From: Plumapathes pennacea
Taxonomy: Eukaryota; Cnidaria; Anthozoa; Antipatharia; Myriopathidae
Reading direction: 5' to 3'
Assembly: GCA_964036295.1 (NCBI GenBank)
Contig: CAXIWU010000012.1
Location: 1 to 64,000, forward strand
Length of the DNA: 64,000 bases
Shown here: positions 6,192-64,000 of the stretch, in pieces
How positions within the stretch are numbered: the first letter of the stretch is position 1
Layout of the letters: each line of letters starts with the position of its first letter
Notes under the pieces: generated by a model
Databases searched by the model: none
What the model was told of the DNA's origin: nothing
The model's input: the letters and a program-made list of their open reading frames with translations, nothing else
Program-made: the position numbers and the translations under genes

Positions 6192-6222
<31 letters not shown>

Positions 6223-7363: not shown

Positions 7364-7461
7364 TTCAGCGAAGATGTCTCTTGCGTGAAGACTAGTAGAG
7401 GTGTGAGAATGCGTAGGAAGGTAAACAAGCTTCGTTGCCATTGGCAGCAAGCTGAAGGCAG

Positions 7462-7472
7462 CCAATCACGTG
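7462..7472 (-). promoter_or_regulatory. CCAAT box fused to E-box upstream of recombinase
   Basis: CCAAT (7462-7466) is followed immediately by CACGTG (7467-7472), about 100 bp upstream of the recombinase start. A second CACGTG lies at 7631-7636 beside a GC-rich stretch. Together they look like a promoter-proximal region. Copies: 20344, 33226 and 46112. The motifs are seen; promoter function is inferred. Confidence 0.4.
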
Positions 7473-8657: not shown

Positions 8658-8663
8658 TATAAA
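8658..8663 (+). promoter_or_regulatory. TATA box of the plus-strand gene
   Basis: TATAAA lies 63-68 bp upstream of the ATG at 8726, leaving room for a transcription start near 8688 and a short leader. An in-frame ATG lies at 8663, overlapping the TATA box, so it is unlikely to be the translation start. This supports the choice of 8726. Copies: 21540, 34422 and 47308. Confidence 0.55.
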
Positions 8664-8725
8664 TGAGAGAGCCGAAAAGCTCACAATCATATCACAATCA
8701 TTGCTGGAGTGGAAGAGTGTTAAAA

Positions 8726-17854: not shown

Positions 17855-17927
<73 letters not shown>

Positions 17928-19075: not shown

Positions 19076-19106
<31 letters not shown>

Positions 19107-30736: not shown

Positions 30737-30809
<73 letters not shown>

Positions 30810-31957: not shown

Positions 31958-31988
<31 letters not shown>

Positions 31989-33127
31989 AAACAAAAATAA
32001 AAGGGCAACGTACCACTCCAACCACTTGCCCTTCTCGGCCAAATCTTCCTTGGTTTGGGGACGTTCGCGATCTCCCTCCCTCTGCAACTGTGACGCTTGC
32101 GACCGGAGTTGGTTAATAACGGCAACTCTCCTATATTCCGGGGCCTCTGAGCTGTGTAGCATTTTCACGGCGTACAAAATCGATGACACATGGTTTGACA
32201 GCGTCGCTGACTTTAGATTGCGGGTATTCTGAAAAGAACGAAGCATGTGGTTACTGAATGCGGTTCAACTCAAAGAAAGCGCGCAAAGCACTCGACTCTC
32301 CCTTCAAAACTCGGACACGCGCGAAAAGTATGACAAAGGCTTCTTGCATACATACCTTCAGAAAATCGAGGTATGCCTCGATCAAGGCAATGTCGCAAAA
32401 CGACGATGGCTTCATAGTCCTTTCTCGTCCATATACGAAGCCAAGGTAGCCTGAAAAGCGAGACATACGATACATTAGTAAAATGCGACGAGGTTAGATT
32501 CCTAGCATTTTTTTCTTTTTTTGCCTGAAATGAAGGTTGTGCATACAGATGTTGGCGCTGGAATTTTCTTCTGAGAAGTGAGTACTTACACATGATCCTT
32601 TCGCTCGTTTTGGAAAAGGTAGCTATGGTTATGGGCGGTGCTCTTCGCAGGAGATTGTGTTCGCGCGTCCAGAAATCACGTAGGTCTGTAAGAAATGTGC
32701 TCATTTCTGCGGTCAGCAAAGTCGGGTCCAGAGCGTAGCCTCGCGGTCTCTTGTCAGTGGGTATCTTGTCAGTGTAGACGTCGTGGCCCTGAGCGGCGCA
32801 TTCGACTAGGGTTTGGGGTTCTTCCACGGCGATGCTGTCGTGGTTGCCGTTGTCGTCAGGAACATCATGATCATCATCTAGGCCGCTGGTCTCGTGAGCA
32901 TCGATTTCATCGGCGCTGCTGCTGTCGCTGTTGCTTTGGTCGTGCAGGTCACTGCTGGCCTCGTCAGATTGTAGCTCGGGTATGTCGGCGCTGTTGCGTT
33001 GAATCGTGGATCGTGAATACTCCCCCTCGTCGTCTGATGATGACGGGGACGGTGATGATGATGATGATGATGATTCCTCGGATGACTCGGTGCCTTGATC
33101 AGTATAACTTAAGATTAAGTTTTCCAT
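29656..33127 (-). CDS. Crypton-like tyrosine recombinase, unit D
   Basis: Exons on minus: 32590-33127, 32356-32450, 32014-32228, 31411-31711, 31010-31123, 30480-30613, 29656-30196. I see no disruption; splice sites and catalytic residues match unit B. Confidence 0.85.
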
Positions 33128-34489
33128 TTCAGCGAAGATGTCTCTTGCGTGAAGACTAGTAGAGGTGTGAGAATGCGTAGGAAGGTAAACAAGCTTCGTT
33201 GCCATTGGCAGCAAGCTGAAGGCAGCCAATCACGTGCGAGATTTTAGCCGCGTAATGAGCGGTAAGGTTCTGATAGCAGAGTGATGAGAAAACCGGCCCG
33301 AAAGGTTGAGAAAAGTCCTATTTACTTCTTTCTCCTGCTCTCTCAATATCTTTGCTGGTTTTGTTTTCTTGTGGGGCGGTTGCCGTGCAAGAGACACGTG
33401 CACGGTAAAAAGGCGGGGGCGCGCGCGTTCCCAGTCCCCCTCGGCCAAACTGAAAGTTTGGGCCAAGCAGTTGGGCGAAGTTTGAAGTGTTGTGAGTGAC
33501 GGTCCGCTGTGTACAGCATAATGAATTGAAGGTGAAAGCCTTGGGTACACATGCAGGAATACTTGGCGAAAGTTTGATGCGATTCTGTCATTAGGGCGAC
33601 TTGGAGAGTAACATCGAAAAAGGGGTATTTGCAAAAAAGAGCGATATTTGGAAAGTCGGCGCTTGTGAAGGAAAAGCTGGAAAGTGTTGAAAGTTGTCAG
33701 AAAGCTTGCTGGGACGATGAGGATAGTTTTTGGTTAACATTTGTGCTATGTTTGTTGAGCGGTTGAGTGGATTTAGGGTTAAAATAAAGGGAAAACTTTG
33801 GGGTGATTTTGCAGCGGAACGCGTGAGTGGATCTGGGTGAAAAACTGTCGGGGCCCTTCCTAAGAAAGCAGAGTAGCGTTTGGAGGTGTTTTCGTAAAAG
33901 GGGAAAGAGTGCATGTGGCAGTTTTTGATGTTAAAGATGGGCAAGTGAATGCGTCGTCCATCTTGGAATATGAGTGAGACTGGGCTCGAGTATTGGGGAG
34001 GGCTTGGTTCTACGGCGAGAACAATGGGGTCACGCGATGGATACGGGGTTTTCGCTGAGACATGTAAAGTGTAAAAAGTTGTAAAAATGTGTTTAGGATC
34101 GGGGTGCTGGACTGTTTTGTGGATGTAAACTGAGTGAATACACTTGCAAGGCAGCAAGTTAGATCGACGACTCGAACGTTCGATGTGTTGAAATAATGGG
34201 CTTGGCGAGGCGGGGCAGGGTGGAGTCGATGACGAATGGAGTGTCTGAAGCAATTGTCGAGTGTTTGTTGGACGTAAATAATAAGCTTGGGAGGTGGGGT
34301 CGATGACGAATCGAGCCAAATCGAGTGTCCGATGCGATTGTGGACTAATTTGGTCAATGTAAATAATACACTTTGCAAGGTGTGGTAATTTTGGTATGTG
34401 ATGTAATCAAGTGAATAAAAGTATAAATGAGAGAGCCGAAAAGCTCACAATCATATCACAATCATTGCTGGAGTGGAAGAGTGTTAAAA

Positions 34490-37400
34490 ATGAGTGGCGA
34501 GTCTCCCGTGTCGAAAAGGCGCCGTCGTCGAGAAAGTCCGTTCGTGCTAACCGAGGCCGCTGAAAGTCGTGGAGGAGATGATGATGGAGAACAAGAGCAG
34601 GAAGGAGCAGCAGAAGAAGAAGAACAACCAGATGAGCAGCAGCAGCAGCAGCAGCAGGAGGAGGAGGAGGAGGAGGAAGTCGTTTCGCAGTAAGTGCTCG
34701 TATTTAAACTGGGCTTTAAGCGCTTTAATAGTGGCGCCAAGTTTTGTGATAAAATAATACTTTTACAATCGAAGTCGACAGTCGATGCCGGCATAGATGC
34801 CGCCGGTTCTTTTCAGGTAGTTCTCTGCAGGTAGTCGTCCGCGTTGATTTGATCTATCCTGAGCTGTTAAGACCCGAATTCTAGTCAAGTGTCGATCGAG
34901 TATCGAGTATAGACCGGTAATCGGGATTCGTTGTCTGCCACAACACTAGACACAAAAATGACCTTCACTGCACTTCAATGACTTTCTGAGATATGAATTT
35001 GCTATATCAGAAGACCTACAAGGTCCCCGTGTCTGGAATTCAATACCTTTATCCCTTCGTCAGTCTCTATATAAAACTACACAACCACAAAAAATTGCTC
35101 AAGTCATATTTTCTTACTGTGACAACCTAGCATAAATAGATCCTACTTGTAACAGTACCCAGCTGCATGTATTATCTTCAGTGTAACTATTTTTTATTTG
35201 TATGATTGTGACAACCTAGCAATATTATCTAGTATTATTGTCAGCATAACTAAACTTATTTACCTATTCACACGAATCTTTATAATAATTAAATTATTTG
35301 CAATCCTGCAGTTATAGATCCTACCTGTATGTGATGGTACTGAGTCATCGTGTGTAACCAAATGTATCTATTTTTGTGTGGTTAGACACTTGTAGTAATA
35401 ATGTTGTATTGTATGCACGTGCAAGTGTGAATTGTTTATCGCACTGCCGTTGCATGTAGTGCATGTAGTGCCGAGCTGGTCCGATCGAAATGCTTCTTTT
35501 CCGTGTATTTCTAATCTGAACTTGTCCTCGGCGTTTATTCTCAGGTGCACCCCCTCTCTGTACAGACGAGTGGACAGAGAAAGGGAGGAGCAGATGCTGG
35601 CCCAACCCCTGGGCGTGACCCCCTATTTCCCGTCAGGCCTGTCCGTGGAAGGCGCGCCTCTCCAGTTCGACTTCGATCTCTTCCTATTCGACAGCCTGCA
35701 CCTACCGTTTGGCCTGTTCGAGGAGGACAAGGGCGACGCCGTTGACTTTGAGAACCTCCAAGAGTGCAAGGCGTACTGCGAGAGGTTCGCCCGCGACGCT
35801 CTCGACGAAGCCAGGGACATCAGAAGAGAACAAGACGAGGAAAGCGCTCGGACCCCGGCAAGCACCCCGGCGGCGGCGGCGTCACTTGACAAGCAGGCCA
35901 TGTTCCGGACAGCGGGCAACGGCCTGGACGGAATGCTCGCAACGGGAATTGCATCGTGCGATCGCAATATAGCGCGAGTGAGACAGGACAGGTGAGATAA
36001 CCTTTGCTCCCTTCCCTCCTCCCCCCCCCCCCCCCAAAAAAAAAAAACAAAACAAAACAATCCACCCCCACCCCGACTCTAACTCAAGCCAATGAACTGA
36101 CACACACCGCGAATATTGATTTATGCAGTTGCATTTATTTGATCAGTTGTTTACAGATCAAAGTTCACTAGTTGGTTTGAGAGAATCTGCATTTTGAACC
36201 TGGGAGTGAAAATAGTGTAAATATGTGTTGCGAATATTGATTTATGCAGTTGCATTTATTTGATCAGTTGTTTACAGATCAAAGTTCACTAGTTGGTTTG
36301 AGAGAATCTGCATTTTGAACCTGGGAGTGAAAATAGTGTAAATATGTGTTCAACATTTGCTTGCAATCTCTCACAGATTTGGCAACGTCATGGTGCTCGG
36401 AGCTCCAGCCTGGAGCGACCTGTCGCCGCAATTCATGCACGGGTATCCCAGGCGTCTGGTCACCGCTGACCATGGGGGCTTCCTCCCGGGGAACGTTTGC
36501 GTGGCGGCCAGGATTTCAAACCAATTCATGCGAAGCATGGCGCCCGGGGACATTGCAGGGTTCTGCTACAGGCAGGCCATGTCCAGCCTGGGCCTCACCC
36601 TGCCCGAGCTGTTCCTGGCCAGGCAGTCGGCCCTCGCATACTCCGGTCAGGCCAGGCAGCCACAGCGACTGGTGCACAGCATGGTGAGGTACGGGATCGA
36701 CTTCCTCACCTTCTCTGCCCTGGGCAGCGAGGAACTCGTGAGACTGGACGAGCTGGGCTCGGCACTCAACCGGAGGCACGCCGAGAACCTCAGCCCTGAA
36801 CAGTACCAACACCAAGAGGGCGACGAGCAGTCCACCTCCGACACGGACGGAGCAGTGTCCGAGGACTCGGTGGAGCTGGAGTCCAGTTTCCTGGCCGACA
36901 GACTGTCGCAGAGCGACAGAGAGAAGCTGGGAGCTGACCTCCCCAGGCTGAAGACCCAGCTGCTCGAGCAATTCGGGGGCGGAGCGAGCGCCCCGCCGCC
37001 TCGACAGCCACCAGACGAGGGGACGTCCCGTCCCAGGGCTCGGTCGTCCACCTCAGCAGCTCAGTCTTCGGGCAGCTCTTCCACAAGACGTAGGCGCTCC
37101 AGGAGGGAGGGTGTCGGGGCAGTGGCAACTGTCGAGGACGCAGGCTCCGGGCAACAGGTGGCAGCAGCAGCAGCAGCAGCAGCAGCACCGCCGGGCGAGG
37201 AAGACCTGGGGCAACGCCTCGCAAGGGTCCCTGGCATCAGTGTCGCCCACCTTCCCAGCCCCTCTGCCTTGGCCTCGCTTCGGGAGTTCTTCAGGAAGCA
37301 CGTACCGGTGGAACGAGCTGTAAGTGAGCACATGTTATTATTAGGACAGATCACTGCTAGCCCATTCTTTCTCTAAGAGTCAGAGAATAATAGTTGCCCT

Positions 37401-38739
37401 GTTGGCGATTTTTGCAGAATTACTATCAATGTAATAATGATATCGGTAGTAGTAGATGGAGGAGTTGTACTATTGTTATCATTATTTACTAGATTCCATT
37501 CACTATTTCTAAATGTTCGCCTCGGAAGAAATGGCCACATGCCAGCCAAGCATAAAGGCTGTGCATGCTATCAATCGATAGTGTTTATCCAGCACCACAT
37601 TTTGGCTGTCCCATTAATGCAAAAGGTAATATTACAACATGTTAATTGGTGCAAGGCAACCGTGATAACCCTAAGGCTAGGATAGACAGCTTACTGAACG
37701 AGTTTAAATAGAGAGTTGTTATTGTTGAATGCTGAACATCTTTTGACCAACTCTCTCGCTCAGTTTCTCACCAGATATACACTGCACAGCAGAATAAATT
37801 CCCACCCCGTCTCCAGTCACACATTTCAAAACAGGGTAAAGCAGGGTCAATCTCACCGACTGAATCTGACTCCTTCAGCAGGTTGAAGGCCTAGCCTCCA
37901 GAACTCCAGGGGCACAGGTGCCCGAGAGCCCATCGACCGTCTTCGGGGAGCTCGCCCTGGGCCTCCACAGGACCAGGCGCTCGCGAGAAGTCCGAGCTGC
38001 ACTCCAGGCTCTTTGGGATCTAGCGTCCAGGGTGTGCGTCTGCAGCGTTCCCGATATTGGCCCACTGGAAGATGGAATAACCCCAAGTCCCTCCGAGGAC
38101 TGCCCATACAGGATGAACCAGTCCCTGGGGCAGTTCATCGATCCCGCATCCGAAGTGTGCCGGGCCAACTGCTCTGTGTGCGAGGTCTTCCGGGAGTACG
38201 GCAAGCTCCAATCCTGTGGCATAACAACCAACCTGGACAAGAACTCTCGCATGCAGAGCATGGTCACCCTAGGTTCCCTTGTGGTCAACCTCCTCTGGGG
38301 GGGCTCTCTGGAAACCGCACAGGAGCAGAACCAAATAAAGGCCCTGATGCAGAAGCTCCTCAGCTGCGGGAAAGACAAAGTAAATGCCGTCCTCAGCGTG
38401 GGACTGCTGGCAAGGAACCACACGCCCAGAATCGCCCAGGTGTACCTTTCATCAGGTTGGTCCGACTTCTGGAGGGAAATGAGGAGAGTGGGCACAGCAC
38501 TGTACCACCAGGATTCCAAACGGGCCTGCTCTGCTGTGCTATCATTCATCAGAATGAAATGTGTGCCACCAGGGAATGCTTGGTCCTACTACCTCACCAG
38601 CAGTGACGAAGCGTCAGAGACCCAAGCGCTGGAGGCTCTGCTAGGCCACAGTGTTGCTGAAACGACATCAACGGCAGCATCAACGACAAGCACAAGCACA
38701 ACAACTGCACCCAGCAGCAGCAGCAGCTCCCATGAGTGA
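34490..38739 (+). CDS. Unknown element protein, unit D
   Basis: Exons: 34490-34689, 35545-35991, 36377-37319, 37882-38739. Intact, with the same splice sites as unit B. Confidence 0.75.
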
Positions 38740-41700
38740 GTGACTGACTACATTAAGCAAGTTAGTTGGACTTTCATTTCTCAAACTGCTTTGACATGAC
38801 TCAGGTATCGAATTGTGAATATTGTTGAGCACCTGTAAGATATTTTGCTTCATGTTAGCCATTAGCCATTTCAAATAATTTGAGTCTACAATATTAGCCA
38901 TCTTAGCCTGTTGTTGCAAGTTTCAAGTTTATGATATTATGTCAATACCACACAAGGACAGGAGAAGATAATAGGTATTTAAGCCATTCATCAAATTTGA
39001 GTCTACAATATTATAGTGTTCCAAGGTGATGCTGTTCTAGTTGCTACGACACCGGCTGGGTCAGACTTCGGGTTAAAAAAAAAAAATCCAGTAAGCTTAT
39101 ATCCTGTAAGATATTTCACTACATGTTAGCCTGCTGTTCACAGCTAATTTCCATATACAAGTTCAAGTTCATTATCTAAATACCACAAGGACATAGGAGA
39201 AGATGATAGGTATTAACCATTTCAAATTTGAGTCATAATAAACTGCTTTGACATGACTCGGGTATCGAATTGTGAATTGTTGAGGCACCTCTAAGATATT
39301 CCACTACATCTTAGCCTGTTGTTCACAGCTAAATTTTATGCCCAAATTCAAGTCTCAAGTTGTATCATATTGTATTAATATCACACAATGACAGGAGAAG
39401 ATGATAGGTATTAGCCATTTCAAATATCACAGTGTTCCAAGGTAATGTTTTTTCTAGTTGCTACGACACCGGCTGGGTCAGACTTCAGATTAAAAAAAAA
39501 AAAAATCCAGTAAGATTATATCCTGTGAGATATTTCACTACATGTTAGCCTGCTGTTCACAGCTAATTTCCATATACAAGTTCAAGTTCATCATATAAAT
39601 AGCACACAAGGACATAGGAGAAGATGATAGGTATTAACCATTTCAAATTTGAGTCGATTAATAATTCTAGGTACTAAGTAATATTGCAGTTTTCTGTTAT
39701 CAAACCCAGTGGGTCAGACTTTAGATTAAAAAGAAGTCCAGTTCTCAACTGACTGTGTGTGATAAAGTCTACGAGTAAATCGGCACTGAGTTACATTGGT
39801 TTCGATTGAAAGTGTGTAAGCCAAAAGGGCACGGGACATTCAGTTGAAGCTGCTCGACGTGTACTACGGTTCAAAATGGCTCGAGATCACTTTTCAAACT
39901 GCTTTGACATGACTCGGGTATCGAATTGTGAATTGTTGAGGCACCTCTAAGACATTCCACTACATGTTAGCCTGTTGTTCACTGTTCAAGTTCATTAATA
40001 TATAAATAGCACACAAGGACATAGGAGAAGATGATAGGTATTAACCATTTCAAATTTGAGTCGAATAACAATTCTAGGTACTAGGTAATATTGCAGTTTT
40101 CTGTTATCAAACCCAGTGGGTCAGACTTTAGATTAAAAAGAAGTCCAGTTCTCAACTGACTATGTGTGATAAAGTCTACAAATAAATTGGCACCGAGTTA
40201 CACTGGTTTCCACTGAAAGCAATCTTTTGATAATAACCCTTGTGGTGTTTATGAAAATATTGAAGGGTGCATGACTCATTTTCAAGTGTGACATAACATA
40301 TCATGGGGTGGCTGACTCACACTTGCAAGTGTGACACTTGACTGACATAAACATCATGGGATGCGTGACTCACACTCGCAAATGTACATAGGACTGGTTT
40401 CATGATAACATGGGATGCGTGACTCACACTCGCAAATGTACATAGGACTGGTTTCATGATAACATGGGATGCGCGACTCACCCTCGGGAGTGCCAAATTG
40501 ACCGCTGTCCACACCATGGGGTGTGGATGAAACTCTCAATTCACCCCAGTAGGGTGACTAACTTTAAGAAATCACCCTTCGAGTGTCGAAAGAGTCCTGG
40601 AGGAAGGTTAGGGTTCAGCCCCGCCACGAACTCGCAAAATATGTGTTATGTTTCCAAAGAGAACAACCTTCCGCCCTATTAGGACAGCCCTACAACCGAT
40701 TCGGTGAATTTTGATATGCACGAACCCTTGGGTGTGCATGATAAATTGTTCCTGGCATAGGATACATTCTATGACAAGATCGACTCACCTCGTGGCTCGT
40801 TCGCTCGTTGTGCGATTAACACTCCGAAACGCGAGGGGACGTGGCGTTGTAAAACTGTCGGCAGTTGCCTTGGGAGTCCAAGGAAGCGATTTATGCAGCG
40901 CACTTTGATAGGAATGGATTGGTTGGCACCAGAATACGGCTTGAAAGCGGTTCTGCTGACGTCGAAACCACATCCGCCATTTTGAAAGGAGGACTTCTCG
41001 TTTCCAGGGCCTTCGAGTGGGGAACTGGTATCGAATGGTCCCTCGTCGAGAGAAGACTGGACTCGAACTAGAAGTCAGGGATTGCTGTGCTGTCATAATT
41101 TGCTGATAAAAACGGGCTTTTGTACTGGATTTCTTGAACTCGAGCATTCCGGAAGAACGCTGGTAAGTGCACATGTAGTGAAGAACGCGCTGTACGAAAA
41201 GTCGACCACGTAATCTCGGCTGGTAATTAAATTTAGTTCCCCATTGTACAAGGCAGAGTTGAATACAATCTTTGCTTGCTGTTAGAACCAGTTTATTGAA
41301 TTGATTTCTTGAACTGTAGTAATTAAACAAGAACAATATTATTGTAGTAACACCAACTCGAGAAGGATTATGTAGATATAAGTCATTGTACAGAACTCAT
41401 ACTGTATATAAACAACCACAGGTCTAAATAGACACAAATAGTCATTTCAAGTGAATGGGACAGGGTATTGCTTTACAAATCCGGTGTAGCGTGAAAAACT
41501 TTTTACCGGGTGACATTCTTGAATAATTCTCAGTGATATTATTGTTATTATAATTATTATTATCATTACTTTTCCTTTTTGTTTGTTTGAATGCACTCTC
41601 CAATCTTAAAAGATAGCAAGCAATAGAAGACCCACTGATTTAAATTTGGTAATCACGTCTGCAGAAATCTCTGGGATGTATTACAAGCAATCCAGGGACT

Positions 41701-51625: not shown

Positions 51626-53491
51626 GTGACTGACTACATTAAGCAAGTTAGTTGGACTTTCATTTCTCAAACTGCTTTGACATGACTCAGGTATCGAATT
51701 GTGAATATTGTTGAGCACCTGTAAGATATTTTGCTTCATGTTAGCCATTAGCCATTTCAAATAATTTGAGTCTACAATATTAGCCATCTTAGCCTGTTGT
51801 TGCAAGTTTCAAGTTTATGATATTATGTCAATACCACACAAGGACAGGAGAAGATAATAGGTATTTAAGCCATTCATCAAATTTGAGTCTACAATATTAT
51901 AGTGTTCCAAGGTGATGCTGTTCTAGTTGCTACGACACCGGCTGGGTCAGACTTCGGGTTAAAAAAAAAAAATCCAGTAAGCTTATATCCTGTAAGATAT
52001 TTCACTACATGTTAGCCTGCTGTTCACAGCTAATTTCCATATACAAGTTCAAGTTCATTATCTAAATACCACAAGGACATAGGAGAAGATGATAGGTATT
52101 AACCATTTCAAATTTGAGTCATAATAAACTGCTTTGACATGACTCGGGTATCGAATTGTGAATTGTTGAGGCACCTCTAAGATATTCCACTACATCTTAG
52201 CCTGTTGTTCACAGCTAAATTTTATGCCCAAATTCAAGTCTCAAGTTGTATCATATTGTATTAATATCACACAATGACAGGAGAAGATGATAGGTATTAG
52301 CCATTTCAAATATCACAGTGTTCCAAGGTAATGTTTTTTCTAGTTGCTACGACACCGGCTGGGTCAGACTTCAGATTAAAAAAAAAAAAAATCCAGTAAG
52401 ATTATATCCTGTGAGATATTTCACTACATGTTAGCCTGCTGTTCACAGCTAATTTCCATATACAAGTTCAAGTTCATCATATAAATAGCACACAAGGACA
52501 TAGGAGAAGATGATAGGTATTAACCATTTCAAATTTGAGTCGATTAATAATTCTAGGTACTAAGTAATATTGCAGTTTTCTGTTATCAAACCCAGTGGGT
52601 CAGACTTTAGATTAAAAAGAAGTCCAGTTCTCAACTGACTGTGTGTGATAAAGTCTACGAGTAAATCGGCACTGAGTTACATTGGTTTCGATTGAAAGTG
52701 TGTAAGCCAAAAGGGCACGGGACATTCAGTTGAAGCTGCTCGACGTGTACTACGGTTCAAAATGGCTCGAGATCACTTTTCAAACTGCTTTGACATGACT
52801 CGGGTATCGAATTGTGAATTGTTGAGGCACCTCTAAGACATTCCACTACATGTTAGCCTGTTGTTCACTGTTCAAGTTCATTAATATATAAATAGCACAC
52901 AAGGACATAGGAGAAGATGATAGGTATTAACCATTTCAAATTTGAGTCGAATAACAATTCTAGGTACTAGGTAATATTGCAGTTTTCTGTTATCAAACCC
53001 AGTGGGTCAGACTTTAGATTAAAAAGAAGTCCAGTTCTCAACTGACTATGTGTGATAAAGTCTACAAATAAATTGGCACCGAGTTACACTGGTTTCCACT
53101 GAAAGCAATCTTTTGATAATAACCCTTGTGGTGTTTATGAAAATATTGAAGGGTGCATGACTCATTTTCAAGTGTGACATAACATATCATGGGGTGGCTG
53201 ACTCACACTTGCAAGTGTGACACTTGACTGACATAAACATCATGGGATGCGTGACTCACACTCGCAAATGTACATAGGACTGGTTTCATGATAACATGGG
53301 ATGCGTGACTCACACTCGCAAATGTACATAGGACTGGTTTCATGATAACATGGGATGCGCGACTCACCCTCGGGAGTGCCAAATTGACCGCTGTCCACAC
53401 CATGGGGTGTGGATGAAACTCTCAATTCACCCCAGTAGGGTGACTAACTTTAAGAAATCACCCTTCGAGTGTCGAAAGAGTCCTGGAGGAA

Positions 53492-53525
53492 GGTTAGGTT
53501 AGGGTTAGGGTTAGGGTTAGGGTTT
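53492..53525 (+). repeat. Interstitial telomeric repeat (TTAGGG) at array end
   Basis: One short TTAGG unit is followed by four perfect TTAGGG units, ending in TTT. TTAGGG is the telomere repeat of cnidarians and most animals. The G-rich strand reads toward the right of the window. The run marks the exact end of the 12.88-kb array and the start of unrelated flank. Confidence 0.95.
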
Positions 53526-53770
53526 CCTTTATTTGAGATAATCTCCACAATGTGAGGTGTGATATGTATACTTCAGTTGGGTGAATCACTCAATTTGACG
53601 CACATTTTGGGTGTTAAGACCACAATGCATGGTGTGAGTTATAAACTTCATCTGGGTTTATCACCAACTTGACTTACACTTCAGGTGTTATATGTTCACA
53701 ACATGAGGTGAGAATTATAATCCATCAGGGTGAACTACTCACTTGACTATTCTGCAGGGATCCTACAAGT
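53526..53770 (+). repeat. Diverged subterminal-like repeats right of the telomeric run
   Basis: Three quasi-repeats of about 70-80 bp, each with CACAAxxxxxxGGTGxGA followed by TTCA/CATC and a GGGTG motif (starting near 53546, 53622 and 53697). They resemble, loosely, the CCACACCATGGGGTGTGG segment at 1859 in the array. They may be the remains of another element end on the other side of the telomeric repeats. The resemblance is by eye only. Confidence 0.45.
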
Positions 53771-53838
53771 TTTTTTCATTCAAAACAGTGTGCAACTTTG
53801 GGATGGTCCTTCCTTGTAATTATGTCCATTCTTGTAGT

Positions 53839-54102
53839 TCACCATTTATTTTGTGAATGTCGAGCAAAGGCCCTTGAGTAAGTATTTTCAACCCCCTCTG
53901 GCAACAATACATTTGTTAGTACATATACCGGGGCATTTTTGAACATCTTGCATATTTCTGATTTCGTGAAGCCAACTTGCTGAAGTAAGTTGCTATCTTC
54001 GCCTAATCTAATACATTGAGGTATACCCAGACCAGGCTTTTTTGAGTTAAAGGGACAGGTACACGAAGGAACCTGACCGACGCTGACCTCATAATCTTTC
54101 AA
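53839..54102 (-). pseudogene. Possible SWIM-type zinc-finger protein fragment
   Basis: An 87-codon open stretch contains PSCTCPFNSKKPGLG and LLQQVGFTKSEICKMF, which resemble the region around a SWIM finger (CxC...CxH). The second metal-binding half (normally CKH) is not present: the expected position reads PQCIRLGED. I take it as a decayed piece of a repeat-encoded or host SWIM protein. It could also be coincidental. Confidence 0.35.
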
Positions 54103-54116
54103 ACAACAAACCGCTT

Positions 54117-54536
<420 letters not shown>

Positions 54537-54587
54537 TTATCGCAACTTGCAACTAGCAACTAGCATGAAACCTTTGCTGTTTGCAAA

Positions 54588-55460
54588 ATACTGTGACCGG
54601 GTCGAGGTTTGTGTTGTTATGGAAACAACGACAAAATAATCCAGTCCAAAATAGGAATTTAATAAACACAAGAGAACAGTATCAGTATCTAATGACATAA
54701 GCAATTATCAAATTACAGAATTGCTCAACGTGGCTATAGCAAACTGTGACAAAGTCTGGTTTGGTAAAAACAACAAAGATCAAATGCTACCAAAACGAAT
54801 TAAGATTAACAGGAAAAGACTAACAAATGGAAACATAAGCTATATATAACAGCTAAGCAAAATTAATTGGAAAGCTAAGTTGACTAAAAAGTGCTAAGAA
54901 ACAATAACAGACTATAACAGCAGGTCACTGTAAAGGTCAAACGCAATGTAACTACATGAGAATCATACCTTGGGAATATAGGTAGAGATAGACTTGAACT
55001 TGACTTGACTTGTACAAAAATAATAGAGCTAGAGCCGTTTTCGGATGACTGTCGAAAACCAAAACCAAAGTAATCACACAGGCCAATCACAGAGACTGAG
55101 AGAAAACAGTTCAGCCAATTGGAAGCCAAAGTAATTCATGTTTGGTCTTGCATTTGGTTTTACTTTCCAATCAGCAGTGCGAGTACACGCCATCGCTTGC
55201 GTGAGAAGTGTTTGGTTTTGGTTTTGGTTTTGGTTTTGTTCCTGATTGGCTGAGCATGCTGACAAACTAGTGTGGACCAATCCGAAAGCGAAGCAAACGC
55301 AAAACCAAAGCAATCACACAATTACTTTCGACAGTCATCCGAAAACCGTTCTAATTACACAACTGATGATAACTGAGTGAACTAGAGCTACTTTTATAAC
55401 ACAAGTAATAAATCATGACTAAGGTATTGTTATAGAAATTGTGCAACTCGGTCACAATAC
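54588..55460. mobile_element. Solo-LTR-like or TIR element with 4-bp target duplication
   Basis: The element at 54592-55456 begins TGTGACCGGGTCG and ends CAACTCGGTCACA. These ends are inverted copies with two mismatches and fit the TG...CA rule of LTRs. It is flanked on both sides by ATAC (54588-54591 and 55457-55460). An AATAAA lies inside near 54662. No coding sequence was found. A solo LTR is the simplest reading; a non-autonomous DNA transposon is the alternative. A MITE is nested within it. Confidence 0.5.
55030..55353. mobile_element. Foldback MITE nested in the LTR-like element
   Basis: The 27-bp ends starting TAGAGCCGTTTTCGGATGAC (55030-55056) are mirrored at 55327-55353 with two mismatches, and the inverted similarity continues inward as CAAAG.AATCACACA. 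No coding capacity. From memory, elements with these ends are very common in stony-coral genomes. Confidence 0.75.
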
Positions 55461-55691
55461 CACTGAAGACTTTGTCAGAGATGTAATAATAAAATAGGTA
55501 ATTAACAATAATATTACCATGATTAGCCAATGCCAAAACTACTGGGACTAAATGCATATAAGAATAATAAAGAATGAAAGAGAACATCCAGTTATTAGCT
55601 AATTGGCTAACTTAGAACGGAATGGTGATCTTTCAAAAATAAGACTTTATTATGGTTTTCAACTAACCCCGAGTTCTTTTCTTGTCTTACA

Positions 55692-55815
55692 AGACTACCC
55701 AGTCAGAGGGTCTAAATTTGGGTCTTGAAATTTTGGAAGAGCAGCATGTAATTGCCTTCCAAGGTTCGAATGAGGACATTTTCTTTCTCATCAAAGAATT
55801 GTAGAGTTCGATGGC
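55692..55815 (-). pseudogene. Truncated duplicate of recombinase exon 4
   Basis: Nearly identical to 57529-57679 within exon 4 of the neighbouring recombinase gene, but with about 34 bp missing in the middle (the bases after TTTTCTTTCTC in exon 4). It lies just downstream of that gene's stop. It has no splice context and is not part of any gene model here. Confidence 0.75.
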
Positions 55816-55845
55816 TGATGGTGCACAATAATATTGTATCATTCA

Positions 55846-56380
55846 TTAATTAGATAGGTGTTTGTGAATTGATCTGAGTGTCTTAAGTAGGCGAATATTG
55901 CCAGATCGTTTGTCCACTGCAGTTTTCACAGGGAGCAATGCATCAATTGATTCTACCCAGGACTCATCACCATCTAGCTGTAATGCAAAACAGCCCTTTC
56001 CTACAGGCTTGTACCAGAGTAGACTTGCCTCATGCTTATTAGGGTACCTCTGTATGCGTCCCAGGAGTATGGCTGGCTTTGATAACGTGCTTCTTTCTTC
56101 CTTCAATGCCACAAAGGATCCTACAGGTATTTCTTTACGTTCCCCTGTTACAGCTCTGAGTGGCAGGTCATCATCTGACTCACTTTCATCTGACTCTATG
56201 CCAAGCTTATCCTCTTCTGCTTTTAAGGCAGCTTGAGCGAGCTCCATGGCAGGTTCCTTTTTCTCTTGAAAAGTTCGACGGTCATATGTATACTCACCCT
56301 GCCTTCGTGAGTGCCTTAAAGCAGCGGCCAAGGACTCCTTCATCGAGTCATTGCACTCTCTGCAAATTGTAGACATACAC

Positions 56381-56436
<56 letters not shown>

Positions 56437-59400
56437 TTTTTTTTTTTCTGTTATTCCAACAGACTTTGCTGCTGTTCTGTAGTTAATAACATTCATAAAA
56501 TAGTTTCTGCATTCTGATTGGCCAAGAGTGTGTCAATTTATTCCAAACAGCATAAAAATGTGAAATTAATAGTGCAGAAATTGAAAATTACTGACAGGTG
56601 TTCTGTTTACAAAAAACAAAAAAAGTTCTTGAAAGACACTGTCTTGTGAATTGTAACAAAATTGAAAACAAATGCATGACATAATGTATTGTGTGCATGA
56701 TATTGTTATATTACATGACTTCTCATGCAATTTTGAAATAAATGAGCACTCATAAAATTTTCAAAGACCACAAACTGCACTTGCACAGTGCTTGTGCAAT
56801 TTTGTAGGCTTTGAAAATATCACTCACATGCTTATTTACTCCAAATTGCACTCATAATCATGTAACCCTAACCTTTACCTATACTAATTTCAACCCTAAC
56901 CTCTGGCTGTATGCCCATGTAATAAAAGATGCTCGCAGACAGTTCACAGAGATATGGACTCCAAGAAGCTTCTCGAAGATCCCTGCAAGGTGTTTGGAGA
57001 ATGCTGCTGCACTGAATGGTTTACCAGCATGGTTCTGTAACCAGCAGAAGGTAAGCTGTTAGGCTAAGGGGAGCTATGTGTAATGCAAAGAGCACAATTG
57101 TTGTGTGTCCATTTTTAAATTTGTCAAAGACAAGCTACCAACCAATTAAACTCCTAAATCAATAAACCCCAGTGCTGTGTGTCATGTCAAATTAGTATGT
57201 AATGTTTTTTCACTCACCAGGAACACATACTTGTTTTCTTCACTTCCAGATTGGCTTTGGAGCAGTGTGTTCCGGTACGTGTGGATGTACTTTGTGATGA
57301 GGTCAGGCAAGTCCACAACAGCTCCTTTCTGTAAAGACATTGTGTTTTAATACCCTGTGCAGTTGTTCCAGCTAATAATCTGTACACCCCGAGTTTTATT
57401 TGTGAAAGTCTAATCAGGAGATTGAAACTTCTGTTTGCTTGTATACTGGTTTGTGTTTGTTTAGCTGTCTTGGATTGAGCAGAACATTTATGCAATCAGT
57501 ACTGATTTGCAACCAACCTTGACAACGACCCGGTCAGAGGGTCTAAATTTTTGGGTCTTGAAATTTTGGAAGAGCAGCGTGTAATTGCCTTCCGAGGTTC
57601 GAATGAGGACATTTTCTTTCTCAAAGTTCTTTCTTTCGAAAGCTCCCTGGTTTGCCTCATCAAAGAATTGTAGAGTTCGCATCTCCAAGGCTCTAGCTGG
57701 GGGAATTGATACATAGAAAGCAAGGAGAAGTAAGTCCATCATTTCTTTTGCCCTGTGTTGATGGCCCTTCGCCAGGTAATAGCGTTCTTGTTGTAGTCGC
57801 ACTGATCTGATCACATCTGGCCTATAATGAATTGGGAAATGTGCTCTTTAGTAACAATAAAAATGCAGGCTCATTATGTTAGGTAGAGATACGCTTGCAC
57901 AATATATCTCAAGAATGTTTCACAGAAAACTCTCTGTGGTACCTTGTACTGCATGCAAGTAGTAAATGATCAGACTATCAACTCTCACTACATCAATTAT
58001 ACCTTCCCGTTTAAAACGGTGGGTTGAAAATGTACATACATCTGAAACAGTACTTACCAGTCTAGCCACCTGCCCTCTTCGATAAGATCTTCCTTCGATT
58101 GATTACGTTGGCTTTCTCCTCTTACTTGTAGCTGAGTTGCTATGGATCGTAGCTGGGACAGTAGAGGTACATCCTTGTATTGGGGCGCTGACGCTTGGTT
58201 TTGAAACTTGATCACATATAGAATAGACGATACATGGTTAGCCATCGTGGCATCTTTCAGGTTGCGTTCTTCCTGTTGGTTCAAAAGGTTCATGATATTA
58301 TGTATGAATCACCAAGACTTCTGCTAAAAGGGTCTAGTGTGGGTCTCTGTAGCACTAAGCACTCAAGTTTTAGGCACTCTAACTGCTTAAAAATTATGCT
58401 TAAAAATTATGACACGCGCGTGTCACACGGCTTTGTTGTCACGGTATTCAAACGTCCATAGCTCCTGATAGATATTTTGTATCAACCCAGAATTTTGCTT
58501 TAAGTCTTTTAAGACTTAAAAGGCATAATAGTCTTGAACATATCAGTGTATTGGACTTACAGGTAGCCTGTGTAGCAAGCGTTTCCGTAGGGGGTTTCTA
58601 AGTGCATACGACGACTTTTTTGATTTTAGCCGCGCGAAACTTGGGGCGAGCGCAAGAAGGACGCGAGGGGAGGGAGGCGGGGAGGTGAGAAGGAAACCGC
58701 CTCCTCCTCCCTCCCCCCCTCACCCCAAGTTTCGCGCGGCTAAAATCGAAAAATTTGTCGTATGCGCTTAGAAACCTACGGAAACGCTTGCTACGGAGGC
58801 TAATTTATAGGATACGTTACTTTTGAAAAGGCTTTTTATGACACATGCAAACCAAGAATTGAAATACTGACTAATTTGCATACTGTATGAACTTGTAAAC
58901 ATTCACCGCAAGTGGATATTTTTTGGCATTTGTCACTCAGAAATTTTAGCGGATAACAAACCAACGGCTTCAGATTTGTTTACGCAAATCTGAAGCCGTT
59001 GGTTTAGGTTGTTTACCATTTACCCCGGAAATTTCGGTTGGAACGTAAATGGAAAACGGCTTTTGGTTCGATCAAATAACCATTAAAACGCCATCGATGC
59101 CACTGATTGTTCTGAATGGCACCTAACAATGCCAAACACAGCAGAGTGAAACAATCGATGTCAGAATCAATGGCCAAACAAACTTCGGACCCATAAAACA
59201 CGTTCCGAACAAAACTATGGTTGCAACAACTACGACAACATCTTCCTTTTAAAACTGCGTTGTTCGACCACACCCTGTACTAATCTGGAAAACCGCAACT
59301 GCTTTATTTGCTTACCCTCAAATACTCAAGGTAGCTTTCGACCAGGGAAGCTTTTTTAAATACTGACGTGTCCAGCTCCGAAGTCTTCGACACGTAGCCA

Positions 59401-60480
59401 AGAAAACCTGAAACGCACAGAAAAGACTCGTTTGTCCAAAATACCAAACTCGATCAGGGTAATTTTGTTTCTCTGAAAGAAACTGAAATGTTACTACAGC
59501 AAGGACAACATGTCCCACAACGCCTAAGAAACAGAATATGAATACTCACACAAAATTCTCTCCAGCACTTTCTTGAAAGTAGTTTCGCTCACAGCAGGAG
59601 CTCTGCGCGCCAGGCAGTACTTTTTAGTCCAGAATTGCTCGAGGTTCTTTAGGAAAGTCCTCATCTCGTCGGGAAGTTCTTTATCGCGCAGACGATACGC
59701 TGAACTCTTATGATTTTTCAGAACAGCACTGCCACTAGGCGTCGGGTGTATCTTTTCTACTACGTCATTGGCACTGGCGTCACTGACAGAATTAGTCAGC
59801 TTTTCAACTTGCTGGGACCAGCTTTTCATCTCTTGCACGCCATCACTGGAATCTTCGTCACTGGAGAAACTAATCAATTTTTCTCGTGGTGGACTATCTG
59901 GCTGGCTAACTTGGGTGTCCGGGAATTTAGAAGAAGTCTTTCTCCCGTCTCTCTCTTGCACGCCATCACTGGAATCTTCGTCACTGGAGAAACTAATCAA
60001 TTTTTCTCGTGGTGGACTATCTGGCTGGCTAACTTGGGTGTCCGGGAATTTAGAAGAAGTCTTTCTCCCGTCTCTCTCTTGCACGCCATCACTAGAATCT
60101 CCGTCACTGGAGAAACTAATCAATTTTTCTCGTGGTGGACTATCTGGCTGGCTAACTTGGGTGTCCGGGAATTTAGAAGAAGTCTTTCTCCCGTCTCTCT
60201 CTTGCACGCCATCACTAGAATCTCCGTAAGTAGAGAAACTACTCTCTCTCTTGGCAATCTTGTTCAAAGGTTCGTCAACTTGGGTGTCGCAGGACATCGA
60301 AGTAGTCTCTGCTTTCTCCATGGAGCATTTCGTTTTCTCCACATCAGTAAAATCATTGGTTCCATAGAAACTAATCTTTTCGTTTGGTATTTGTATCGTT
60401 TCACAAGAATTTTCGGGGGAGAAACTAAAGGAGTCTGTGTCGGAATCCGACTCGTTCTCATAAGCTTTCAAATTGTCCAT
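55846..60480 (-). CDS. Diverged single-copy Crypton-like tyrosine recombinase (7 exons, 766 aa)
   Basis: Exons on minus: 59550-60480, 59316-59407, 58058-58272, 57518-57821, 57218-57328, 56901-57034, 55846-56359. Intron phases match the array gene exactly (1, 0, 2, 0, 0, 2); exons 3 and 6 have the same lengths (215 and 134). Catalytic positions: R456 in PPARALEMRTL, K501 in FKTQKFRP, R585 in VNCLRASFIT (again Asn for His), H612 and Y621 in LRHSRRQGEYTYDRRT. The post-Tyr segment (about 673-760) is also conserved. Exon 1 is longer than in the array because of a 41-residue repeat. Donor of exon 4 is GTTGGT and of exon 6 GTTAGG, both weak but GT. No stop or frameshift was seen. AATAAA on minus at 55646-55651 may end the transcript. 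It could be an older element relative or a domesticated host gene. Confidence 0.8.
56381..56449 (+). repeat. Poly-T tract in intron 6 of diverged recombinase
   Basis: More than 50 T, interrupted by AG near 56435. It begins about 22 bp upstream (in transcript sense) of the exon-7 acceptor, as a poly-A run on the transcribed sense strand. Confidence 0.9.
58564..58802. mobile_element. Foldback MITE in intron 2 of diverged recombinase
   Basis: Arms of about 80 bp, 58564-58646 and 58723-58802, are inverted copies with few mismatches, starting TAGCCT and ending AGGCTA. The GC-rich centre is also partly self-complementary (GGGAGGGAGGCGG against CCGCCTCC). No target duplication is evident beyond TA. 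No coding sequence. Confidence 0.85.
58958..59005. repeat. Perfect 21-bp inverted repeat (hairpin)
   Basis: AAACCAACGGCTTCAGATTTG at 58958-58978 is followed by a 6-base spacer and its exact complement at 58985-59005. It lies in intron 2 of the diverged recombinase. It could be a tiny palindromic insertion or a structured RNA segment; no further evidence. Confidence 0.9.
59831..60235 (-). repeat. 123-bp coding repeat in exon 1 of the diverged recombinase
   Basis: Three full copies and a partial one of a 123-bp unit (starts at 59831, 59954, 60077 and 60200) encode 41-residue Ser/Asp-rich repeats containing SSDGVQERDGRKTSSKFPD. Copies differ by only a few bases, so the expansion is recent or homogenised. 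The array recombinase lacks it. Confidence 0.9.
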
Positions 60481-60556
60481 ATTCCTATTTTCTTCACGAC
60501 AGAAGGGTTAACTAAACAAATCATGAATCCAAATGTTGTGGTAAGGGTGAGATTAA

Positions 60557-60561
60557 CCAAT
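60557..60561. promoter_or_regulatory. CCAAT box in short head-to-head intergenic region
   Basis: CCAATCAGAG lies in the 111-bp gap between the recombinase ATG (60480, minus) and the next candidate ATG (60592, plus). A shared bidirectional promoter is plausible. Confidence 0.35.
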
Positions 60562-60591
60562 CAGAGGCTATCTTATTTCAGTTAATTAAAG

Positions 60592-60746
60592 ATGGCATAT
60601 GGCCAAAGGCCGCAACTGCGTTCGGACAAACAAACATGGTGTACTGACATTTTTAATGAAAGCAGCAAGTCAGCTGTAAACTCACGTATTTTAAAAGGTG
60701 TATTAGAACTGGCTCAAGGTCAAATTTTACAGTTTGCTCAACTTAG
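60592..60746 (+). CDS. Candidate first exon of an unknown plus-strand gene
   Basis: An ATG opens 51 codons (MAYGQRPQLRSDKQTW...) ending at AACTTAG followed by a GTATGT donor at 60747. It is head-to-head with the diverged recombinase, as the unknown plus gene is in the array, but the protein shows no resemblance to that gene's first exon. No further exons could be assigned downstream; the frame alternatively stays open to 60897. Confidence 0.35.
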
Positions 60747-60897
60747 GTATGTGGAACTTCATGTTCTAAACACGCATCCGTTTCCGCAGGCCTCCACCTT
60801 CGCCGAACCGCGTGTTCGGGTTAGTCTCCGTTTTCCAAACCTTTCATTTCCACGGCGGACAAAGGGTGAAAAACTATGTCTTCCTTCTTTTGGCTGA

Positions 60898-61448
60898 GTT
60901 TCAAGTTGAAGTGATTGAGTGAAATTTGAGACAATTGCTGACATATACTTGCGGTTTTGGTCAATTCATTATTTTTCGCATTCTTCTTCTTCTTCCAGTT
61001 TGATTCAGTTGTGTACAGTATTTTCTATTGCTGGTGAAAATTAAGTGAAGCAAAGCAAAACAGTATCAAATGATAGGCTGTCACGGGTTTTTAAACTTTG
61101 ACCTGCGCTTGTCAAACAACCGACAATTTACGAAAACCCTCTAGGCAGAAATACAACAAATTGACTGACAATTCATGAGTACAATGATGACAAGCAAAAT
61201 AACTCCAGAAAACGACTTCCTATCTCTTGAAATTTCTTCATGCGTATTCTCTGATGCCCAAACTTGGAAGTAAATTGTTGGCACACCACTTGCTAACAAC
61301 CCTCGCTTAAAAATTGGTCGTATCACTAAAATCCTTCAATGACCTTCAATTTTTTCTTTCAGTTTCCCACCTTGGCTTTTGACACTTCAAATGAAGCCAT
61401 ATTAGACTAAAAATTATCATTACAACATTCATACATTTGCTTCTAAAA
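60898..61448. other. Unassigned non-coding stretch
   Basis: No convincing coding sequence, structured RNA or known repeat was seen. Short open frames on minus look random. Confidence 0.5.
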
Positions 61449-61490
61449 GGTTGAGAGAATCTGCATTTTGAGCTTGGAAGTGAGAGAGTC
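61449..61490 (+). repeat. Fragment matching the array's intron-2 repeat
   Basis: The stretch GAGAGAATCTGCATTTTGA and the following GxxTGGxAGTGAxA match the 121-bp intron repeat (around 10418 and 10539) over about 40 bp. This is either a shared dispersed repeat or a remnant of a diverged element. Confidence 0.6.
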
Positions 61491-61771
61491 TTGACGATTT
61501 TGACAGTTTGACTTCAAACACCTCTTTCTAATCAGAAGGTCAGCCTGCAACAACAACAACAACATTTAAGATACAAAAACAGAATGATAATTATAATACT
61601 AAATTGTATACATTATTACAGGTATTGGTCAACCATAACTGAAAAGCTAATCTAGCTAAGTGACACACTAGCCATTAGCCTGCTCTTCATTTATCATATG
61701 GTTGTTGTTGTTTTTTCTAATTGCCAGCCGATCTGTTGAATTTCAGAACTATTATCACCGAGGTTTGGGTA

Positions 61772-61965
61772 AATTATCGGTTGTTTGACAGGCGTGATTC
61801 AAGGCGCTGCATATTCTAGTATCGGTCTAACGAGGGAGATTGATAACATTGTGAACACCTTTGATCAGCATAGCTAACATTGCGTTTAATAATTCCTAAA
61901 AGTTTGTTAGCTTTGTATACCACATTGCTAATGTACTCGCTCCGTGATAAGTCATAAGTTATGTG
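61772..61965 (-). pseudogene. Non-LTR retrotransposon (LINE) reverse-transcriptase fragment
   Basis: Minus-strand translation gives VYKANKLLGIIKR and, in another frame, SLVRPILEYAAP, both typical of the C-terminal part of LINE reverse transcriptases (YKANRxLGxxKR and LVRPxLEYAxxVW). A frameshift separates the two and an in-frame stop follows, so it is a dead fragment. Confidence 0.7.
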
Positions 61966-61974
61966 AGATGGTTA

Positions 61975-62344
61975 TACACAATCAACTCTCTCCAAGGCGG
62001 ATACCCTCGGGACCAAATTTACTGTCCGCCTTAGAGAGAGTTCATGTAGCCTAATATCCGAACCTCAAAACTAAAACCAGTGCTTTGTTACAGAGTACAA
62101 TGTAATAACATCACGGTTCATAACCTCGAACAAAACTAGAAGGTTAAAACTGCTGTTGAACGAAACAAGACGCAAAAAACGAAAGAAGAATGCAAGCGGT
62201 CGCTTACAAGAGGTACAAGAGGTAGTCGTTTGCGAGAGGTTTTACTAATAATTTGACTTAGGAACCAATCGATCATTAGGTAAGTAGTTGCTTAAGAGAG
62301 GTGGTCGCTTACGGGAGTTGGTCGCTCGGGGAGGTTCGACTGTA
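61975..62344. mobile_element. Small TIR element with GAGAGG/CGCTTA repeats
   Basis: The left end TACACAATCAACTCTCTCC and right end GGGAGGTTCGACTGTA are imperfect inverted copies, each ending in TA. Inside, the motif (G)TCGCTTACxxGAG recurs at about 62196, 62287 and 62307, and CCTTAGAGAGAG pairs with CTCTCTCCAAGG. No coding sequence. Similar motifs are common in invertebrate TIR transposons; I cannot name the family. Confidence 0.5.
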
Positions 62345-62349
62345 GTACT

Positions 62350-62640
62350 TACGAAATCCGCGACGTCAGATTTCACTCCGTTCCAAAAGTAGCACTCTGT
62401 AACCTTTTTCAAAGTCTTGTCTCTCCCGAAATTTCCCCCAATGCCGAGGCTTGCCTGGAGGTTTCCAGACCCTCATGGCAAGCTTTAAGGATGCGAAGGC
62501 GCTTGGTGTCTTGTTGTGTCACCCCCCACCCCTCGCCACTTCTGGGATCTTTATAGGACAGTAACCCGTCGTTGAGATGATACGTTTGGGTTATTCGCCT
62601 CAAATGCCTCTTCTCTGTCTTCGTATAACCATCAGGCACT
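62350..62640 (-). pseudogene. Retroelement integrase zinc-binding region, broken
   Basis: The minus strand encodes PDGYTKTEKRHLRRIT, DGLLSYKD and RILKACHEG, the pattern leading into the HHCC zinc domain of Gypsy/BEL-type integrases and of related host genes. About 20 codons later the frame breaks (near 62441) and the family resemblance continues in another frame as GRDKTLKKV, with Asn at the second His position. The CxxC part is absent. It is a decayed copy. Confidence 0.65.
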
Positions 62641-62785
62641 AAGCCGCGGTATTGTAGAATATGCAGAACAGACACACTTGTAAAGGAGGGAAAACTCTCT
62701 GTGGCTTGCTTGAGAGGTACCCAGAGGATCAGGAACGGAGGCCTCTTTAAAATCCGTTTAATTGGAGCGATAACCAATTTTACTT

Positions 62786-63640
62786 GCTATATCTCAAAGT
62801 TCTCTCTCTCGTTTTCTTTTTTCTCTACTAGGTGTGCGCGCCCTTAAGTACGGACGCTAACTCTAGCTTTAATTAGCTGTCCATCAAAATTAAAAACCAA
62901 TGAGGAGACAAGTAGTACGTCACTACATAGCGACTGAAAAGTAAATGTAAAGAGACGCGCTCCGTCAGCTAACTCAAACTTTCATAGTTTACGAATAGGC
63001 AGAGTTCACTTGCTAAACTAACAGAGTGCCCTACTTAAAGTCTGACGAGCGCAGTACCACTTGGTATAAAAATCCTAAAGTCTTAAGTTGTAAGAGATAT
63101 AAAAAGTCCTCGACAGCTAAAGTTGCGTAGTCAACAAAATAGACCAGATAACATTACGTAAGGGTTTTGGAGCTTTAAACTAAACTCCGCCCTCAAAGTG
63201 AGAGTACAACTTTGCTGTAAACAACTTAATTAAGGGGATTAAAGATAGCGCACTTTGTTTGAACGATGAGACCTTTGAAAAATACTTAGTTGCATAAGCG
63301 GACGATTGATAACAAAAGAATTGTACACTACAACAAAGGCCACTACACTTAATTAAATTCGGTCCAGGCTTGCATTGGTCGATCAGGTCAAAACCCAATT
63401 AGTCAGGCCAGGTAAGATTTGGCCGACCGGATTTATAGATATGCCCATAATGCTAAAGCATTGTTCCGACCGTGGACCGTTCACATACTAAAAGAATCAA
63501 TTTGAAAAGTAGAATATTAAACCACGTCCTTAAAATTATGAATATTAATCGTATTAGATCGTAACTATTAATCAACTAATATTTAATCAAAATCTCTTCC
63601 GTAACACATGTATATAACTGCTGTGTCAGTATTACGTACA
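62786..63640. other. Unassigned non-coding stretch
   Basis: AT-rich sequence with no recognisable gene or repeat. The open frames here are short and show no domain features. Confidence 0.5.
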
Positions 63641-63910
63641 CATATACAACACTGTCTAAACTCAGAATGCCATAATAATATACGTCTAAAATCAAAGATG
63701 TCTAAAGTGTACAGCAAAAATCTCACGAGTGCTCCGATGTCTATTCTGTGTCTAAAGTGCTTTCGTTTATATGTATATGTTATAGATGGTCTAAAGTCAA
63801 ATATATAAAATGGGATTCTAGCGAAGTATCCGATGTCTATTCTGTCTAAAGTGTCTATAGTGTATATATATACACTATAGATGTCTACTATACGTCTAAA
63901 GTCAAAAGTG
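63641..63910 (+). repeat. Degenerate GTCTAAAGT repeats with an AT palindrome
   Basis: The motif TGTCTAAAGT or GTCTAAAATCAAA recurs about eight times, and TCCGATGTCTATTCTGT occurs twice (about 63735 and 63828). TATAGTGTATATATATACAC is part of a palindrome near 63857-63880. The minus-strand open frame over this region is a by-product of the repeats. Confidence 0.6.
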
Positions 63911-64000
63911 TGGAACACTTCCCGTTCGTTTTCAGGCAAAATTTTTTTGGGAGTAGGACTTGGGTGTAGCAAAAGCTGCGGAGGGAAAAGGGGTCGCCCC

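Follow-up and report, generated by a model that had tools for sequence, protein, structure and literature searches.

Family A array and the telomere repeat

A tandem array that runs directly into telomere repeats raises the question of how it came to be there, and whether its units are mobile elements that insert into such repeats by themselves. An array of this kind, formed by an element that we call family A, was found in the first 64,000 bases of contig C23 of Plumapathes pennacea (C23:1-64000, hereafter the window; the whole contig was 140,016 bp), followed by the left part of a related element, family B. We propose, with a probability of roughly 0.72, that A and B are DNA transposons which use their own tyrosine recombinase (YR) to enter telomeric TTAGGG repeats.

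The family A array consisted of head-to-tail units of 12,882 or 12,886 bp with 99.97-99.99% identity. The internal junctions between the units (window positions 1956, 14842, 27724, and 40606) read GGAGGAA-GGTTAGGGTT-CAGCCCC, and at the right edge of the array (53492) the same GGAGGAA left half continued as TTAGGG repeats to 53524. The GGTTAGGGTT motif was observed 10 times in the window versus 0.07 times expected from shuffles, so chance was excluded as an explanation for these sites. Thus, the initial claim of the preliminary description of this DNA, namely that the array ended in TTAGGG and that its unit junctions carried the same core, was confirmed at the four junctions and at the 53492 edge. 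The same description treated the right neighbor of the tract as flank, which had to be corrected because the tract was followed by the left end of element B. An array of ribosomal or other RNA genes was rejected as well, since Rfam at gathering thresholds gave no match anywhere in the window.

The genome comprised 290 Mb in 24 contigs. Contigs C1, C2, C4, C6, C7, C8, C11, and C12 were 14.9-42.4 Mb each, and C13, C14, C17, and C23 were 67-140 kb; we infer that C1-C12 were chromosomes. TTAGGG was the telomere repeat of this genome because CCCTAA repeats began at base 25 of C3. Close to the starts of C11 (1916-2155) and C3 (25-481), a (CCCTAA)n stretch gave way to (TTAGGG)n, so that telomere repeats stood head to head. 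Among the matches listed (on C1 and C2), perfect (TTAGGG)5 occurred at one interior site of C1, at one interior site of C2, and at the left edge of another family A array copy on C2.

Whole-genome pattern searches with both ends of A produced 12 matches to the left end and 13 to the right end. The left-end matches were seven tandem junctions (four on C23, two at the end of C2, and one old junction inside C2) and five left edges, and all seven A-A junctions contained a single core. It had been predicted that left edges would have TTAGGG directly before CAGCCCC. This was true for two of the five, at C2:37,908,090 and C11:1,901, where TTAGGG repeats were located immediately 5' of CAGCCCC and toward the contig end; the other three, on C12, had one common flank and did not follow the prediction. 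The right-end matches included six junctions, three edges (one on C23 and two on C12), and four matches with three mismatches (two on C1 and two on C6) that were left out of the edge count. The accompanying prediction of TTAGGG after the right array edge was borne out at all three exact edges. The right end of A was GGAGGAA followed by GGTTAGG and then by TTAGGG repeats, and the core TTAGG(G) was present at both ends of A as a short direct repeat.

Since contigs C2, C11, and C23 started or ended within arrays, one could suspect that the assembly had collapsed the repeats or chimerically joined them to telomere sequence. Such an artefact would hardly produce the same junctions repeatedly, on several contigs that differ in flanks and unit lengths, and we consider it highly improbable.

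Family B and the putative recombinase genes

The left end of family B was found six times in the genome. At C4:103 kb and on C23, it joined TTAGGG repeats as TTAGGGTT directly followed by TCCTT. The left register of A, TTAGGGTT followed by CAGCC, was the same despite the unlike ends of the two families.

Each full A unit carried a seven-exon YR gene and a second gene (gene 2); the genome search found the YR gene of unit 2 also in the other three full units (four copies on C23). Family B had a YR gene with the same exon plan, and its product matched phrog_1 (E 6.5e-7), XerC (1.3e-5), XerD (1.3e-4), and PF00589 (0.016, under the curated cut-off). The A protein was called a YR on the basis of these integrase profile matches of B and of the 49% identity between A and B. 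Letters that were invariant between the two proteins, as read by eye, included PPARA-E-RTL, FKT, NCLR-SFITWAY, and RH[TS]RRQ...TYDRR; these are candidate catalytic motifs. The second box had N, and many YRs carry H at this point of the catalytic set. Thus, the earlier assignment of a tyrosine recombinase to the element held insofar as a multi-exon protein could be read as a YR and its B relative matched integrase profiles; the matches of the A protein itself were weak. In both YR C termini, the recombinase domain was followed by a conserved stretch, GxFVALxExxSTLxxPAILLG... (A residues ~570-658), which had no Pfam match and may be a chromatin-binding module.

Comparison with older A copies on C12, whose genes now had frameshifts or stops, gave ratios of nonsynonymous to synonymous change (pN/pS) of 0.53 and 0.67 for the YR (665/671 codons; Fisher P 0.010 and 0.088). 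For gene 2, the ratios were 0.51 over 408 of its 732 codons (P 0.012) and 0.43 over 709 (P 6e-5). Since pN was below pS, this suggests that both A genes were maintained as proteins by past purifying selection. An aligned unit from C2 differed from C23 by no coding changes in the YR and by two in gene 2. Gene 2 had no meaningful Pfam relative (one match, E 6.6) and no PDB relative. It was probably a core helper protein; the pair of YR and gene 2 also co-occurred in a further family, C, whose YR was 26% identical to that of A.

Proposed model of insertion

According to our model, the element would be excised or copied as a circle with the joint GGAGGAA-GGTTAGGGTT-CAGCC. Strand exchange by the YR would then take place within the TTAGGG core, with a TTAGGG repeat at a telomere or at an interstitial site as the partner. 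Recombination of this kind would yield the observed left edge, the observed right edge and, on repeated insertion, the single-core junctions. The core would be kept at the edges of every inserted copy, so that more circles could insert alongside and head-to-tail arrays would form. Accumulation at chromosome ends would be expected in that telomeres offer endless targets and tolerate inserts. The crossing over of a circular element with a telomeric repeat, as suggested at the outset, therefore fits the edges, the junctions, and the occurrence of the same register in a second YR family; the recombination itself was deduced from these, and three old copies had a non-telomeric left edge.

The chief alternative is that a block which happened to have interstitial TTAGGG on its flanks reached chromosome ends through copying by telomere recombination (rolling circle or break-induced), without any involvement of the YR. 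This would resemble alternative lengthening of telomeres (ALT), as with TALT of C. elegans, and the available description of TALT blocks reports flanking telomere-like repeats in one orientation and tandem arrangement within telomeres (PMC4595603). A single template would account for the constant ends of each family, and rolling circle for the near-identical units. However, it would then be mere chance that two families whose ends differ both have a YR gene and the TTAGGGTT register, and homologous recombination should vary the number of TTAGGG between units, while 7/7 A-A junctions had one core. The signs of coding selection and the recurring pair of YR and gene 2 also point to an autonomous element. 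We regard homology-driven spread as unlikely, and insertion by the YR was favored over plain homology because A and B, whose YRs are related but whose ends differ, had a constant register.

Phosphatase gene associated with family B

A phosphatase gene (C23:63,881-67,144) was intact across 483 amino acids once spliced. Its best solved relative was protein phosphatase 1D (PPM1D, 8t2j; E 5.6e-101), and the next best had E 2e-20. A 291-base exon of this gene had eight matches in the genome. In six of them, the spacing to a B left end was constant, at 7.8 kb for four copies and 10.8 kb for two, and these six were spread over three distinct left contexts. The remaining matches were C4:27,173,942, close to the contig end, and C6:1,034,894, which was perhaps the host phosphatase gene. 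Because of this constant distance from six B left ends, the phosphatase gene appears to travel with B. The DNA to the right of the TTAGGG tract, including the phosphatase gene, was also considered as plain host sequence, and this was overturned by the second YR found there together with the constant exon distance. It is alternatively possible that the gene was caught between elements, as has been described for Terminons (PMC6431247). Between two B subfamilies, nonsynonymous changes in the exon numbered 14 and synonymous ones 7, which gave a pN/pS of about 0.5 (P 0.10).

Human PPM1D is reported to be found at telomeres, to interact with shelterin, and to oppose ATR-dependent phosphorylation of TRF2 (PMC9943673). 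By analogy, one might speculate that the B phosphatase would calm the telomeric damage response and thereby aid the element. If so, a telomere parasite may have captured a host switch for telomeric damage signaling.

Related families and chromosome ends

A genome search with the A YR (100 matches listed; 85 of the 139 candidates scored) led to two more families with intronless intact YRs, each 26% identical to the A YR. Among the matches listed, family C (752 amino acids) occurred as a tandem array with a period of 16,257 bp where C1 ends and as further copies on C4 and C6; family D (733 amino acids) was located near the ends of C2, C4, and C8. Gene 2 (49 matches) followed the 16,257-bp spacing of the family C array and was also present on C4, and on C7 it adjoined a copy of the C right end. 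The right ends of C (on C4) and D (on C2) met TTAGGG. From inside outward, the order was D, TTAGGG, and the A array on C2, and C, TTAGGG, B, 4.3-kb repeats, and B on C4. A minisatellite (tttcacccttgggggtcttttagtaaccctaggg...) was located before family C on C1 and C4 and after family D on C8.

Five of the 12 YR clusters on C1-C12 among the 100 matches listed lay no farther than 150 kb from a contig end (P 2e-7); these end zones were about 1.2% of the sequence, assuming that C1-C12 were chromosomes. A broader and rather doubtful idea is that the YR superfamily (A-D) is at home in telomeres and subtelomeres. Here, chromosome ends would be built of outward-facing elements separated by TTAGGG, the conserved second protein would find or hold telomeric chromatin, the PPM1D/WIP1 of B would quiet the damage response and so make insertion and long arrays tolerable, and the elements would be telomere symbionts extending the ends. 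Tandem stacking at ends would offer a route to lengthen or rebuild chromosome ends without reverse transcription.

Units with a period of ~4.3 kb were found at C4:26112-35537, C13:63974-64732, C14:38843-43943, and C17:21317-26469. Two short A YR segments (88-90% identity) were contained in their open frames of 266-282 amino acids, which had no catalytic parts. Perhaps these units were a non-autonomous or repurposed derivative.

Evidence against insertion by the recombinase

A number of observations weighed against the proposal that A and B insert into TTAGGG repeats through their own YR. First, three of the five A left edges, those on C12, read GATAGAA-TTAGGTTT-CAGCC and adjoined non-telomeric DNA without a repeat tract. 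They had a common left flank and were counted as one event, and for the same reason the C12 stretch was probably duplicated after the insertion; its boundary suggests an exchange point inside TTAGG(G). These old copies were located at 4,622,112, 5,132,413, and 5,776,566; two had large later inserts, and the third matched the unit over its first 921 bases only. Similarly, four of the six B left edges, again with a common flank, adjoined a degenerate tract ending in TCAGGG. The right side of the C23 array faced the remaining contig, so this copy was not simply an outer chromosome end.

Second, the recombinase assignment of the A protein had soft points. Its profile matches were weak (phrog_216 E 0.02, XerC E 0.036), it matched no Pfam model, and a two-sequence profile of A and B found no recombinase among solved structures (one irrelevant match, E 1.7); the A YR alone had no match there either. 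Selection was weak in one of the two YR comparisons (P 0.088). Third, neither an excision product nor a circle nor an empty site was observed, and a telomeric core also permits plain homologous recombination. The clustering near contig ends was inflated because arrays break assemblies and because it was counted among the matches listed.

Finally, family C behaved differently. Of its eight left ends, two adjoined the minisatellite, two adjoined the right end of C (one read, one assigned by position), and four adjoined what by eye was an apparent internal piece of C, and its right breakpoints varied. These left ends and breakpoints led us to reject the possibility that C ended in TTAGGG on both sides. 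Exact TTAGGG insertion is claimed solely for A and B.

Comparison with known systems

SART/TRAS and MoTeR retrotransposons insert into telomeric repeats. Unlike them, A had a YR, and no reverse transcriptase was found in the open reading frames (ORFs) scanned with Pfam (10 of the 31 in the A unit). DIRS and Ngaro elements have a reverse transcriptase and RNase H next to their YR; the same 10 ORFs gave no sign of either, or of a viral gene. DUF3504 is a Pfam domain, and this domain of animal-type Cryptons had no Pfam match in A (E 1) or B (E 10). Similar to Cryptons, A and B had a YR and A had a short direct repeat at its ends, a circle model is proposed (PMC3212892), and no reverse transcriptase was seen in the scanned ORFs of the A unit. 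They differed from Cryptons by a second gene (in A) and a PPM1D passenger (in B), and the accessible text of the Crypton sources named no telomere target; some CryptonV families are described there as targeting microsatellites (PMC8869645).

The preliminary description suggested that such an element would be a new kind of telomere-associated system. A wholly new kind did not hold, since crustacean endogenous nimaviruses (majani-, pemoni-, and some whispoviruses) have already been reported to insert into telomere repeats with a YR. These viruses carry a distinct YR family and host-like genes and are suspected to form concatemers or episomes (PMC10871703). Compared by description, A and B resembled them in telomere-repeat insertion and in having a YR. 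They differed in that majanivirus genomes are 278-401 kb, versus 12.9 kb and two genes for the A unit, and in the TTAGGG target and clean tandem arrays (PMC10871703). One could thus ask whether our families were pieces left by a large endogenous DNA virus of this telomere-dwelling type, given the telomere insertion, the YR, the possible concatemers, and the intron-bearing host-like genes that the accessible text describes for nimaviruses (PMC10871703). Against this, the repeating unit was only 12.9 kb with two genes (the full extent of B lay beyond the sequence reached), none of five pattern matches of the A YR in IMG/VR contigs was confirmed, and no viral gene was recognized among the scanned ORFs. 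A viral origin of this kind seems very improbable.

Rotifer Terminons, which are Penelope-like, share telomeric arrays, telomere-repeat stretches at junctions, and host genes caught between copies, but unlike A and B they are reverse-transcriptase elements (PMC6431247). TALT of ALT survivors is similarly a tandem block flanked by telomere repeats; unlike A and B, it represents host DNA amplified in telomerase-deleted worms, and a recombinase gene is unmentioned in the part of that source available (PMC4595603). Our literature search, which covered titles and abstract openings with few subscription journals and without Repbase, found no small YR transposon in TTAGGG repeats or with a PPM1D passenger. 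What appears to be new is the small, non-viral form with its tandem arrays and its PPM1D passenger. If our proposal is true, a small two-gene DNA transposon joins the rare systems targeting telomere repeats, namely telomeric retrotransposons and giant nimaviruses, and provides a compact recombinase acting on TTAGGG, the telomere repeat in many animals.

Features of the window

Table 1. Coordinates of the family A array, element B, and their genes in the window
Feature	Position	Strand	Evidence or remark
Family A partial unit	1..1955	+	100% identity to unit 1 across 1955 bases; contig starts within array
A-A junction core GGTTAGGGTT	1956..1965	+	Junction reading and motif count
Family A unit 1 (12,886 bp)	1966..14851	+	Unit alignment
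Family A unit 2 (12,882 bp)	14852..27733	+	99.97% to unit 1; 4 gap columns, 0 mismatches
Putative YR gene of unit 2, 671 aa (amino acids)	16774..20323	-	Exons 20323-19708, 19568-19474, 19346-19132, 18829-18529, 18241-18128, 17731-17598, 17314-16774; GT-AG splice model
Gene 2 of unit 2, 732 aa	22712..25858	+	Exons 22712-23109, 23495-24437, 25000-25858; relative in family C
Family A unit 3 (12,882 bp)	27734..40615	+	99.97% to unit 1; 4 gap columns, 0 mismatches
Family A unit 4, end ..CCTGGAGGAA	40616..53491	+	99.99% to unit 1; 1 mismatch
TTAGGG tract separating A array from element B	53492..53524	+	
Family B element, left part	53525..64000	+	Right end beyond window, not reached
Putative YR gene of family B, 7 exons, intact, 766 aa	55846..60480	-	48.8% to A YR over 514 aligned columns, E 2e-170; integrase profiles
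Start of PPM1D-type phosphatase gene	63881..64000	+	Runs on to about C23:67144; 483 aa

Just within element B, a (TAT)n microsatellite of 423 bases with 98% matches occupied window positions 54118-54540.
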